A DNA stretch of 64,000 nt from Arthrobacter sp. MYb213 (GTDB lineage: Bacteria; Actinomycetota; Actinomycetes; Actinomycetales; Micrococcaceae): the NCBI RefSeq assembly GCF_002979915.1, contig NZ_PCQA01000007.1:62001-126000 (forward strand), written 5' to 3'. Positions 50,980 through 54,708 of this stretch are shown in pieces. The position numbers were made by a program, and so were the translations under genes. Below the pieces are notes generated by a model. That model was not told where the DNA came from. It ran no database searches and was given only the letters and a program-made list of their open reading frames with translations. How positions within the stretch are numbered: the stretch's first letter is position 1; every line of letters begins with the position of its first letter.

Positions 50980-51759
50980 GTGAAAATCGCCGTCCTGACC
51001 AAACAGGTACCTGATACGTGGTCGAGCCGTCGCTTGGACCTGCAAACCGGAATGCTAGACCGCGCAGCAGCGGACCTAGTTGCCGACGAGATCTGTGAGC
51101 GTGCCTGCGAAGTGGCGTTACAAGCCGAAAAGTCACTAGGCGAGGTTGAGGTTATCGCGGTAGCCATGGGCGGAGACAAAGCGGCCCTTGCACTGCGCCG
51201 ACTACTGTCCATGGGTGCGCACTCAGCTGTGCATATCTCTGACCCGGCTCTCGCGGGCTCAGACATGATCTCCACCGCCCGAGTTTTGGCAGCAGCCCTT
51301 GAAAAACTCGACGTTGATCTAGTCCTGGCCGGAAATGAATCCACCGACGGCAAGGGTGGCATGGTTCCGGCGATGATCGCTGAACTAATGGACCGCCCGT
51401 TCCTGCCCTACGCAGATGAACTTGAGATCAGTGCAACCGAGGCGACTGGTTCAAGCCAGCTCTCCGAGGCAACCATGAAGCTCAGCGTGGCTTATCCTGC
51501 GGTCGTCTCCGTCACTGAGAAGTCTGCGGAACCTCGCTTCCCGAACTTCAAGGGCATCCGCGCAGCAAAAACTAAGCCTTTGGAAACCTGGACTCTGGCA
51601 GATCTAAGCATCGAAGCGGGACCAGAATCCGCGTACTACCGTTCGGTGATGGTGTCCGCCGAAGACCGTCCGGAGCGCGTGGCTGGTCCAAAGATTACCG
51701 ATGACGGAACGGCAGCAAAGCAGCTGGCCGATTTCTTGGCTGAGAAGCACTTTATCTAA
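50980..51759 (+). CDS. etfB: Electron transfer flavoprotein beta subunit
   Basis: This 259-residue ETF small subunit binds AMP and, with EtfA, carries electrons from acyl-CoA and other flavin dehydrogenases. KIAVLTKQVPD opens it. LVLAGNESTDGKGGMVPAMIAELM is the nucleotide-contact segment, and AYPAVVSVTEK and PRFPNFKGIRAAK lead to the ETF signature region. It starts at GTG 50980 with AAGGAG six bases upstream. etfA follows after 68 bases. Confidence 0.95.
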   Translation: MKIAVLTKQVPDTWSSRRLDLQTGMLDRAAADLVADEICERACEVALQAEKSLGEVEVIAVAMGGDKAALALRRLLSMGAHSAVHISDPALAGSDMISTARVLAAALEKLDVDLVLAGNESTDGKGGMVPAMIAELMDRPFLPYADELEISATEATGSSQLSEATMKLSVAYPAVVSVTEKSAEPRFPNFKGIRAAKTKPLETWTLADLSIEAGPESAYYRSVMVSAEDRPERVAGPKITDDGTAAKQLADFLAEKHFI

Positions 51760-51827
51760 GTCCCTCTCGCAGCCTTCCGTAATTTTTAGTCCCCCACGAC
51801 TTATCCTTGCTCAGGAGAATTCACCCC

Positions 51828-52820
51828 ATGTCAGAAAATAATCAGCCGGTTGTTGTCCACGTTCAGGTCGCAACCGATGGAACACTCCAAAACACCACCG
51901 CAGGTCTACTCGGCACCGCTGCCCAGTTCGGCACTCCGGTAGCCGTTGCTGTCTGTGCCACCGGCCAAGAACAGCAACTAGCGACCAAGCTGGGCGAACT
52001 GGGTGCCGCCGAAGTACAGGTCCTGCCCATCGATTTAGATGCGCTTGCACTGGGCTCCGCAGATGTCGCAGCATTGGCTTCGGTCATCAAGACGACTTCA
52101 CCGGCCGCCATTCTCATCTCCAATACCGCCATCGGACGCACCATCGCAGGTCGTTTGGCGATCCGTGTTGAAGGCGCAGTATGCGTCGATGCAGTATCGG
52201 TGCGTTGGGCCGATGATGAACCAATCGCTTCACACTCAATCTTTGGTGGCGATGTCACCTCGGAATCCACCGTTGAAGGCGGGCCACGGATTATTACCAT
52301 CCGTCCAGGCGCCTCCGACCTGAAAGCGGAAGCAGTTGCTTCTCCGAAGATCACCGTCATTGAGCCTTCGGCACTACCTAAGGTTTCTAAAGGCGCGCAG
52401 ATCCGCTCGGTTGAGTCGGTACAGACCGATGCCAGCCGCCCAGACCTGCGTAGCGCCAAGATTGTCGTTTCCGGTGGACGCGGCGTAGGTTCGGCCGAGA
52501 AGTTTGAAATTGTCGAACAGCTCGCGGACCACTTCGGTGCAGCCGTCGGAGCTTCGCGTGCAGCGGTAGATTCCGGTTATGTTTCCCCGAAGCTTCAGGT
52601 GGGTCAGACCGGAGTCATTGTCTCTCCCGAGCTCTACATTTCCTTGGGTATCTCCGGTGCTATCCAGCACCGTGCAGGCATGCAGACCGCCAAAACCATT
52701 GTCGCCATTGATAAGGACGAAAACGCGCCAATCTTTGACCACGCCGATTTTGGTGTGGTGGGCGATCTGTTCACCGTCGTGCCGCAGTTGCTCGAAGAGA
52801 TTCGTACCCGCAAAGGATAA
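51828..52820 (+). CDS. etfA: Electron transfer flavoprotein alpha subunit
   Basis: This 330-residue ETF large subunit has the C-terminal FAD domain clearly present: [21 protein letters not shown], then [36 protein letters not shown] and ATVAIDKD-like [23 protein letters not shown]. It begins [10 protein letters not shown] with AGGAG upstream. The next gene, a cytochrome-b-type membrane protein, follows after 79 bases on the same strand with no terminator between, which suggests one transcript. Confidence 0.95.
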
Positions 52821-52899
52821 TCGTGGGCATTGTCCACTCAGGTAGGTTCCGGCCCCGTAAGATCCGCCGGATACGACGACGCGATGAGGTTCAACGATC

Positions 52900-54708
52900 A
52901 TGACCAAGCAACGGATGGCAGGCTACACTCCCCTGCGTACCAAGGGCGGTGTGCAACCCGAAGCACCTGCCAGTGCCAAAGAAATACCCACGACACAACC
53001 TGCGGCCGCGGAGCCAGCCGCGGCAGCCGTACCAATGCAGGCCCCACCAGCCGCGGTGGCTGAACCGGTACAGAAGACCGTGCCTGCTGAAGCGCCTGCG
53101 CCAGTAGCTCCAGTAGCTCCAGTAGCTCCAGTAGCTCCAGTAGCTCCAGCGGAAACCAAACCCGCCGCAGCGGCGAGCGAAGTTTCACGTCCAGAGACCG
53201 ACTCAACACGTCAGCGTATGGCCGGTTACACCCCGTTGCGGCTGCGCGACGGGGTCGCAGCGAAGGCTGTGGCAACAGCCCCGGTGGCAGCAGCTACTGC
53301 CGCGACGACACCGGCTCCTGCTAAGGACTCAGCCACTGAGGTGGCTCCGTCGGTCGTACATGCGCCAGCGACTGCATCCAGTGACTCGGAAAGCACACCA
53401 GCTGCCGCGGTGGTCGCAACGCCCGATGCTAAGGCTGCTGCAATTGTCGCGAACCGGATGAAGGGCTACACACCGTTACGTCCGCGCGATGGCTCAACCA
53501 AGTCCGTGGCTGTCCCCGCGGACCTAACCACCGAGGAATCCAACCAGACCCCACAGGTCGCAGAACCGGTGTCCGAACCAGCAGTCGTCGCAGCGACGGC
53601 CACCGAACAGCCGGAAACCTCGCAAGAGGCCAAGGCAATGAAACCCGTCGCCGAACCGGTGGCAGAAGAAGCTCCTGCGCCCCAGGCACCGGACAAGGCT
53701 GCGAACATTGCAGCACCAGTGACGCACTCCGAGTCCCCAGCTGCTGCCAAGCCAGCAACGGCCCCGGTGAGCGGAGCAAAGCAAGATGCTTCATCGATCA
53801 AGATGAAGCCTTGGGTAAAGCCCGCGATGCTCATCATCGGTGCGGTGCTGGTTGCACTGCTAGTAGTACTGGCGGCTCGTGGCCTGCGCCTACTTGGCCC
53901 GGTCCAGGATTTCATTGGCACCTATGATGGTCATTCGACCATGCCTGATTCGGCGCCCACGGGTATTCCTGGATGGCTCGGTTGGCAGCACTTCTTGAAT
54001 ATGTTCTTTATTGTGTTGATCATTCGCACGGGCTTGCAGGTACGTCATGAAAAACGTCCGGCAGCCATGTGGACTCCGAAACCCAACTCGTGGTTCTCCC
54101 CGAAGGGTAATAGTCCAAAGAAATACTCACTGAGCATCTGGACCCACCAGGCACTGGATGTGTTGTGGGTAGTAAACGGCGTGATCTTCGTGATTCTCTT
54201 GGCCGCCACCGGTCAGTGGATGCGTGTGGTCCCAACCAGCTGGGATATCTTCCCAAATATGCTCTCAGGTGCGCTGCAGTACGCTTCGCTCAATTGGCCT
54301 GTGGAGAACGGATGGATCCACTACAACGCGTTGCAGATGGTCTCCTACTTCCTGGTGATCTATATTGCCGCACCACTGGCAATCTTGACCGGCGTGCGCA
54401 TGTCCAGCTGGTGGCCAACACAGCCGAAGGCACTGAATAAGTTCTACCCGGTTGAAGTGGCCCGCAAGATTCACTTCCCGGTCATGCTCTTCTTCTCGGC
54501 CTTCATTCTGGTTCACGTGTTCCTGGTAATGACCACCGGTGCCTTGAAGAATCTGAACCATATGTATAGCTCCCGTGATGCGACCGATGCCTGGGGACTG
54601 GTGATCTTCTTAGTTTCCGTAGCGGTTATCGCGGCCGCATGGATCTTCATGAAGCCAATGTTCTTGTTGCCGGTAGCCTCAGCGACGGGCAAGATTTCCA
54701 AAAACTAA
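52900..54708 (+). CDS. Cytochrome b-type membrane protein with repeated M(A/K)GYTPLR motif, linked to etfBA
   Basis: This 602-residue protein has two distinct parts. Residues 1 to about 300 are Ala/Pro/Glu-rich and surely disordered. They carry three copies of the motif RM(A/K)GYTPLR at residues 6-13, 107-114 and 187-194, the last two followed by xRDG. From about residue 302 a cytochrome b561 / formate-dehydrogenase-gamma-like domain begins, with about five membrane helices. Candidate haem-ligand histidines are in WQHFLNMF, WTHQAL, ARKIHFPVM and LVHVF. Such b-type cytochromes pass electrons to quinone. Position right after etfBA suggests that it receives electrons from ETF directly or through a partner, with the repeated motif as a docking peptide. 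That role is inference. I know of no described protein with this plan. Confidence 0.8.
   Translation: MTKQRMAGYTPLRTKGGVQPEAPASAKEIPTTQPAAAEPAAAAVPMQAPPAAVAEPVQKTVPAEAPAPVAPVAPVAPVAPVAPAETKPAAAASEVSRPETDSTRQRMAGYTPLRLRDGVAAKAVATAPVAAATAATTPAPAKDSATEVAPSVVHAPATASSDSESTPAAAVVATPDAKAAAIVANRMKGYTPLRPRDGSTKSVAVPADLTTEESNQTPQVAEPVSEPAVVAATATEQPETSQEAKAMKPVAEPVAEEAPAPQAPDKAANIAAPVTHSESPAAAKPATAPVSGAKQDASSIKMKPWVKPAMLIIGAVLVALLVVLAARGLRLLGPVQDFIGTYDGHSTMPDSAPTGIPGWLGWQHFLNMFFIVLIIRTGLQVRHEKRPAAMWTPKPNSWFSPKGNSPKKYSLSIWTHQALDVLWVVNGVIFVILLAATGQWMRVVPTSWDIFPNMLSGALQYASLNWPVENGWIHYNALQMVSYFLVIYIAAPLAILTGVRMSSWWPTQPKALNKFYPVEVARKIHFPVMLFFSAFILVHVFLVMTTGALKNLNHMYSSRDATDAWGLVIFLVSVAVIAAAWIFMKPMFLLPVASATGKISKN
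53101..53145 (+). repeat. Five tandem copies of CCAGTAGCT inside the cytochrome b gene
   Basis: The nine-base unit is repeated five times without error and encodes Pro-Val-Ala repeats in the disordered N-terminal part. Perfect DNA identity suggests recent slippage and likely length variation between strains. Confidence 0.95.

Follow-up and report, generated by a model that had tools for sequence, protein, structure and literature searches.

Background

The route by which the electron-transferring flavoprotein (ETF) delivers its electrons to the respiratory chain has only lately been clarified in mycobacteria, where it runs through the membrane protein EtfD (PMC8593149, PMC13083937), and acyl-CoA dehydrogenase activity in mycobacteria needs EtfD (PMC8593149). 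The C-terminal disordered region of mycobacterial EtfD holds 'conserved interspersed repeats', credited in that source to Szekely 2020, and in an AlphaFold3 model of 2026 ETF contacts EtfD via this repeat-bearing region; the EtfD structure showed no bound ETF (all PMC13083937). The DUF224 EtfAB:menaquinone oxidoreductase of Syntrophomonas wolfei is an iron-sulphur membrane protein (PMC3582634), and EtfAB:menaquinone oxidoreductases are also described in PMC6176080. Here we describe a locus at positions 50980 to 54708 of a 64,000-nucleotide stretch of the Arthrobacter sp. MYb213 genome (the whole of this stretch is referred to as the window), in which the genes of the two ETF subunits, etfB and etfA, are followed by a gene for a membrane cytochrome b. 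We think it probable that the adjoining ETF has its membrane acceptor in the product of this third gene, a haem-only cytochrome b that would pass electrons to menaquinone and that in its tailed forms carries a repeat docking tail.

The family to which the window genome belongs (Arthrobacter, Micrococcus, Glutamicibacter and kin) showed no EtfD in 120 genomes sampled, and no ETF:quinone oxidoreductase (ETF-QO) was found in the window genome. If our assignment is true, a lone cytochrome that needs neither flavin nor iron-sulphur centres would do the same task by far simpler means, and the existence of two unrelated repeat-tailed acceptors would suggest that the gathering of ETF at the membrane by short motifs is a general device, one that can be tested with peptides.

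A cytochrome b gene behind etfB and etfA

The three genes lie on the forward strand in the order etfB (50980..51759, an open frame with a GTG start; PF01012, 106 bits, E 2.6e-30), etfA (51828..52820; ETF_alpha PF00766, 117.3 bits, E 3.1e-34, and PF01012, 68.8 bits, E 7.1e-19) and, after 79 intergenic bases, the gene of the 602-residue cytochrome (52900..54708), the proposed haem-only ETF:menaquinone oxidoreductase. Residues 363-555 of this protein match Ni_hydr_CYTB (PF01292) with 33.6 bits, above its cut-off of 30.1 bits, and this is the sole Pfam family in it. The membrane domain (53803..54705) was modelled with six long helices (pLDDT 84.8, pTM 0.79), and five histidines within it (364, 416, 525, 539 and 554) are invariant among all 33 relatives compared; two sit 14 residues apart in one helix, a spacing known from di-haem cytochromes b. 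By its profile score and these histidines of haem-ligand type the protein appears to be a member of PF01292, and it would be expected to carry haem. It contains no cysteine at all, and therefore no cysteine-bound iron-sulphur cluster. A sequence search for a solved homologue returned none, only two AimR entries at E about 0.8. Positive charge is densest at the C-terminus and in the loops that join helix 2 to 3 and helix 4 to 5, so that the N-terminal tail would share the cytoplasm with ETF.

The closest named relative is Glutamicibacter ardleyensis (97% identity in the domain), and the window thus belongs very probably to Glutamicibacter. Two annotated plasmid records name such a gene merely 'cytochrome b/b6 domain-containing protein'. 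No NCBIfam model came near its cut-off for the window cytochrome. An open-access literature search (subscription journals being mostly outside its coverage) returned no recognised description of an ETF-linked b561-type cytochrome and none of the motif words; the literature and NCBIfam searches gave no established separate function for the protein family, and it is such a function that would have undone the original prediction of a candidate new ETF-to-quinone route. Rfam gave no match at the gathering score, and promoter and terminator scans did no better than shuffle level.

A long tail with a conserved repeated motif

The membrane domain is preceded by an Ala/Pro-rich tail (52900..53802), predicted to be disordered (AlphaFold2 gives residues 1-298 a pLDDT under 50, without secondary structure) and cytoplasmic. 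Three copies of a short motif are spaced along it: MAGYTPLR at residues 6-13 (52915..52938), MAGYTPLR at residues 107-114 (53218..53241) and MKGYTPLR at residues 187-194 (53458..53481). The original prediction had drawn attention to this gene order and to these three copies, and both are borne out by the reading frames and by a search with a degenerate DNA pattern for M-x-GYTPLR, which found three matches in the 3.79-Mb genome, all within the cytochrome gene (the reversed control pattern found none). In a three-way alignment with the orthologues of strain MYb229 and of G. ardleyensis (motif residues counted as 5-13, 105-114 and 185-194), identity to MYb229 was 27/29 in the motifs, 85/272 in the remaining tail and 265/301 in the membrane domain; to G. 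ardleyensis, whose first copy reads MAGYIPLR, the corresponding values were 28/29, 169/272 and 291/301. The earlier description of a motif conserved within a non-conserved linker therefore holds. Similar 8-residue windows within the tail number 51 pairs, above all 100 shuffles (shuffle mean 5.8). The protein thus has a long tail with spaced conserved repeats, the disorder of which is a prediction.

Linkage of the cytochrome to etfBA

We surveyed 120 genomes of the family. The cytochrome domain was matched in 95 of them, and 90 genomes have full-length cytochromes (defined by a match of 267 bits or more), at 116 loci in all; excluded from the 116 were matches with scores up to 203 bits, which comprise a split type of about 600 residues and partial ones and of which the weakest are incompletely covered. 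Scored on the same strand within the 3.9-kb fetched flank, etfB and etfA lie upstream of 75 of the 116 cytochromes (58 of the 90 genomes), so that the linkage to etfBA is found well beyond the window. The gap is 150 bases or less in 73 of the 75 linked loci, the other two having gaps of 206 (L264) and 503 bases (L321). At least nine of the 41 loci without etfBA in the flank have PF01012 within 10 kb, among the matches listed. These nine tail-less and seemingly unlinked cytochromes (L258, L288, L293, L297, L299, L300, L304, L310 and L317) stand 5.9-7.7 kb from an ETF match, so the 3.9-kb flank undercounts linkage. ETF is present in 111 of the 120 genomes, including all 90 with a full-length cytochrome, and none of the nine ETF-less genomes has a full-length cytochrome; three of the nine (G002, G005 and G101) have partial cytochrome matches of 30-39% identity, among the matches listed.

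In a second set of named loci (the best 80 of 357, overlapping in species with the family sample), etfA lies upstream in 48 of 80. An acyl-CoA dehydrogenase homologue occurs in 25 of these 48 linked and 8 of the 32 unlinked loci (flanks up to 6 kb), and in 22 of 75 linked and 5 of 41 unlinked of the shorter census loci; these are raw counts. Taken with a third, class-wide sample (below), the recurrence of the arrangement rules out a single-genome oddity.

Two further observations concern individual named loci. At L092 and L115 a tail-less cytochrome gene lies immediately 5' of an acyl-CoA dehydrogenase gene (identified by Pfam for L092) and an enoyl-CoA hydratase-like gene, with no etfBA in the locus; such a cytochrome could couple to the dehydrogenase through an ETF encoded elsewhere. 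The record behind locus L079 bears the name Sporosarcina beigongshangi, yet its GC content is 68% and its etfBA-cytochrome locus is Micrococcaceae-like; the record is probably mislabelled or contaminated.

Repeat tails across the family and the candidate partner of the motif

Tails counted as long (from about 100 residues upward; lengths about 100 to 380) are present in 48 of the 116 full-length cytochromes, the other 68 being short. All 48 long-tailed cytochromes are linked to etfBA versus 27 of the 68 short ones (Fisher 1.8e-13, which is not independent evidence, because on the best tree, several forks of which are unresolved, tail state changes only once and linkage state eight times; for an independent-pairs test, too, the independent changes were too few), and all 41 cytochromes whose fetched flank lacks etfBA are tail-less. 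The tail is not required for the association, since 27 of the 75 linked cytochromes lack it. EtfB positions 195 and 198 and a small number of other ETF residues differ between tailed and tail-less operons; they permit no conclusion, again because the tree has a single change of tail state.

The motifs vary by lineage yet remain repeated. Similar 8-residue windows exceed all 100 shuffles in 45 of the 48 tails (the exceptions being L239, L276 and L309), and in 45 of 47 tails one of three motif types is present twice or more, as counted by regular expressions that were composed after viewing the tails and for which the shuffled expectation is 0.002-0.014 per tail per motif type; the tail of L333, counted separately from the 47, has three GLP copies. 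The types are RRRMAGYTPLR or RRRMAGWQPLSV (type 1), RRGLPRVPGGEPWPP (type 2) and a short R(K/Q)RMG (type 3); L306 and L307 carry RRMAGYTAFRGTPWPP, which combines features of types 1 and 2, and the motifs RRGLPRVPGG and KGLGIAGGAKRPG resemble each other by eye. The literal motif of the window is thus often absent from orthologues, with other repeated motifs in its place, lineage by lineage. Upstream extensions at L104 (in part), L112 and L114 were considered as tails and rejected as frame run-ons. In the class sample (296 genomes, of which 34 match the cytochrome profile), 14 loci were inspected of the 16 full-length matches in families f4 and f6; a GLPR tail is present in eight, and etfA lies within the 1.5-kb flank in seven of these (the eighth is at a contig end) versus none of the six without the motif.

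That the tail is drifting low-complexity sequence, with repeats that are recent and functionless duplications, would suit its Ala/Pro-rich composition and its variable length. We hold this to be highly improbable, given the near-identity of the motifs beside a divergent linker in MYb229, the recurrence of at least two motif copies in almost every tail against the shuffled expectation, and the persistence of repeats throughout the tailed part of the tree.

The identity of the motif's partner is a separate matter. The conservation pattern and the recurring repeats are in keeping with the part of the original prediction that saw a docking peptide here, and ETF would be its partner by analogy with the tail of EtfD. 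It is possible, although we would not call it probable, that the cytochrome is the ETF acceptor and that the tail motifs bind something else, such as an acyl-CoA dehydrogenase, another respiratory complex, lipid or the cytochrome itself: the motifs are basic, acyl-CoA dehydrogenase genes lie near part of the loci, and the etfBA linkage of 27 of the 68 tail-less copies makes the tail dispensable for the partnership with ETF. Speaking for ETF as the partner are the confinement of long tails to etfBA-linked cytochromes and the comparable repeat tail found in one genus on EtfD, which is likewise a proposed ETF acceptor but unrelated.

ETF acceptors in the window genome and the distribution of EtfD

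The window genome has only two etfBA pairs (four PF01012 matches), and a cytochrome gene follows each. The second pair lies on contig C8, and its cytochrome is a tail-less paralogue of 315 residues (52% identical to the window cytochrome; PF01292, 33.6 bits; no NCBIfam model matching at E 0.01), which is to be added to the original prediction. The ETF-QO domains PF21162 and PF05187 were not found in the window genome, the sole genome searched for them (positive controls matched), and the EtfD query likewise had no match there; the original prediction had noted the lack of an ETF-QO gene within the window. The PF02754 matches in this genome are, by reading, a LutA-like protein and an FAD-linked oxidase. 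A reading of the cytochrome as a relative of ETF-QO, FixC or EtfD was rejected: Pfam gives PF01292 alone, the protein has no cysteine, and such families were not found in the genome.

The surroundings of such loci bear on the direction of electron flow. Upstream of the second operon's cytochrome are thiolase-like, aldehyde dehydrogenase-like and MaoC-like genes (named by reading of translations), a setting that looks catabolic, and in the annotated plasmid record that we inspected in context a thiolase and a CoA-transferase gene adjoin the cytochrome gene on the opposite strand. These neighbours speak against a reverse flow, in which the cytochrome would draw on menaquinol and the membrane potential, and the ETF so reduced would serve a reductive acyl-CoA step; b-type cytochromes of such a fold operate in both directions, and we nevertheless consider this highly improbable.

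In the class sample, 17 of the 34 genomes that match the cytochrome profile have a full-length cytochrome with 343 bits or more (families f1, f4 and f6), and the other 17 have molybdopterin-fusion homologues (299 bits in G192; four loci inspected) or partial matches. An EtfD match was found in none of the 17 genomes with a full-length cytochrome, versus 266 of the remaining 279 (about eight of the 266 being weaker than E 1e-50, by reading of the table). The EtfD query gave nine matches in the 120 family genomes, all under 22 bits. This exclusion looks like replacement within one order. Our judgement is evenly divided on the broader proposal that haem-only ETF:menaquinone oxidoreductases form a third class, non-homologous to the others, which replaces EtfD across Micrococcaceae and related families, with a multivalent ETF-docking tail that evolved independently of that of EtfD.

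Proposed mechanism and the evidence that weighs against it

In the mechanism that we propose, acyl-CoA (or similar) dehydrogenases would reduce ETF in the cytoplasm, and the reduced ETF would dock at the cytoplasmic face of the six-helix, probably di-haem cytochrome b. Electrons would then pass singly from the FAD of ETF to the inner haem, on to the second haem and from there to menaquinone. In the tailed forms, a disordered stretch on the cytoplasmic side, some 300 residues long in the window protein, would carry the repeated docking motifs and may keep several ETFs, or complexes of ETF with a dehydrogenase, close to the membrane. The ETF-to-quinone route first proposed for this locus gains much support from the linkage to etfBA, including the further loci within 10 kb, from the lack of matches to ETF-QO domains and to EtfD in the window genome, from the exclusion of EtfD in the class sample and from the acyl-CoA genes near part of the loci; the transfer of electrons itself we infer.

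Several observations weigh against this assignment. The replacement of EtfD appears confined to one order, so the clade-wise exclusion represents few independent events, and the association of tail with linkage reduces to the small number of changes on the tree given above. The top Foldseek match of the membrane domain (FdnI, 1kqf_C; prob 0.98, TMt 0.57) has an E value of 0.25, with nothing reaching E 0.001. No acyl-CoA dehydrogenase gene was found within the window or at locus L007. Of the 111 ETF-bearing family genomes, 21 have neither a full-length cytochrome nor EtfD, and ETF can therefore manage with some other acceptor. At the ETF loci from 20 of these 21 genomes (L341-L360), EtfA is nearer to L344 or L349 than to the window-genome operons in 20 of 20 cases (the two references themselves belong to the 20 loci compared), and the ETF of cytochrome-less, EtfD-less family genomes appears from these sequences to belong to another ETF clade, an observation that counts in favour of our assignment. 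At L344, iscS-like and mnmA-like genes lie beside the ETF genes.

Also to be counted against our assignment are 32 of the 116 cytochromes that have no ETF within 10 kb, among the matches listed, some of which may therefore serve another donor, and the homologous cytochromes fused to a molybdopterin domain, which do co-occur with EtfD (for example in G192) and show another possible donor. The fused forms are actinobacterial proteins of about 600 residues (L143, L146 and L150; L141 by eye) in which the homologous cytochrome b is followed by a C-terminal molybdopterin domain, PF00174; by the same topology, this domain would be cytoplasmic. We think it unlikely that the window cytochrome likewise has another donor, such as a molybdenum enzyme, and that its etfBA neighbourhood is incidental, in view of the linkage at 75 loci in 58 genomes, the two such operons in the window genome, the co-occurrence of full-length cytochromes with ETF and the exclusion of EtfD.

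Comparison with known systems

EtfD (Rv0338c/MSMEG_0690) is among the closest parallels to the window cytochrome as an ETF acceptor: both are membrane proteins with the role, proposed in the case of the cytochrome, of passing electrons from EtfBA to menaquinone, and the EtfD of one genus also has an Ala/Pro-rich repeat tail. At 17 EtfD loci, all of genus code g46 in family f10 (L184-L200), 223-311 residues lie beyond the folded part and contain several GLG(I/L/M)AxGAKRPG repeats within an Ala/Pro/Glu linker; at 17 other EtfD loci (L201-L213, L154, L155, L157 and L159) merely 14-55 residues do. Among the loci inspected the EtfD repeat tail was seen only in g46, the sole f10 genus among them. 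Each of the two unrelated candidate ETF acceptors thus has a repeat tail in part of its lineages only, and by this analogy the EtfD tail is the strongest hint as to the partner of the motif. In architecture the two differ: EtfD combines CCG, 4Fe-4S and NarI-like haem domains with a tail at the C-terminus, whereas the window cytochrome has PF01292, no cysteine, no CCG or 4Fe-4S Pfam match, an N-terminal tail and a different motif.

ETF-QO is a FAD/4Fe-4S protein. The window cytochrome is like ETF-QO and FixCX in its proposed role, but has neither the Fer4_ETF_QO nor the ubiquinone-binding domain. With FdnI and the cytochrome b of NiFe hydrogenases it shares PF01292 and two histidines 14 residues apart; FdnI is also its top fold match, at the E value of 0.25 given above. 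Those cytochromes receive electrons from exported enzymes via iron-sulphur subunits, whereas the donor linked to the present one is a cytoplasmic flavoprotein, and the present one has about 300 extra residues in its tail. The S. wolfei DUF224 protein is like it in being encoded beside etfBA and in its proposed feeding of menaquinone, and unlike it in being an iron-sulphur protein (PMC3582634). Most likely, the cytochrome works like EtfD or ETF-QO yet belongs to neither.

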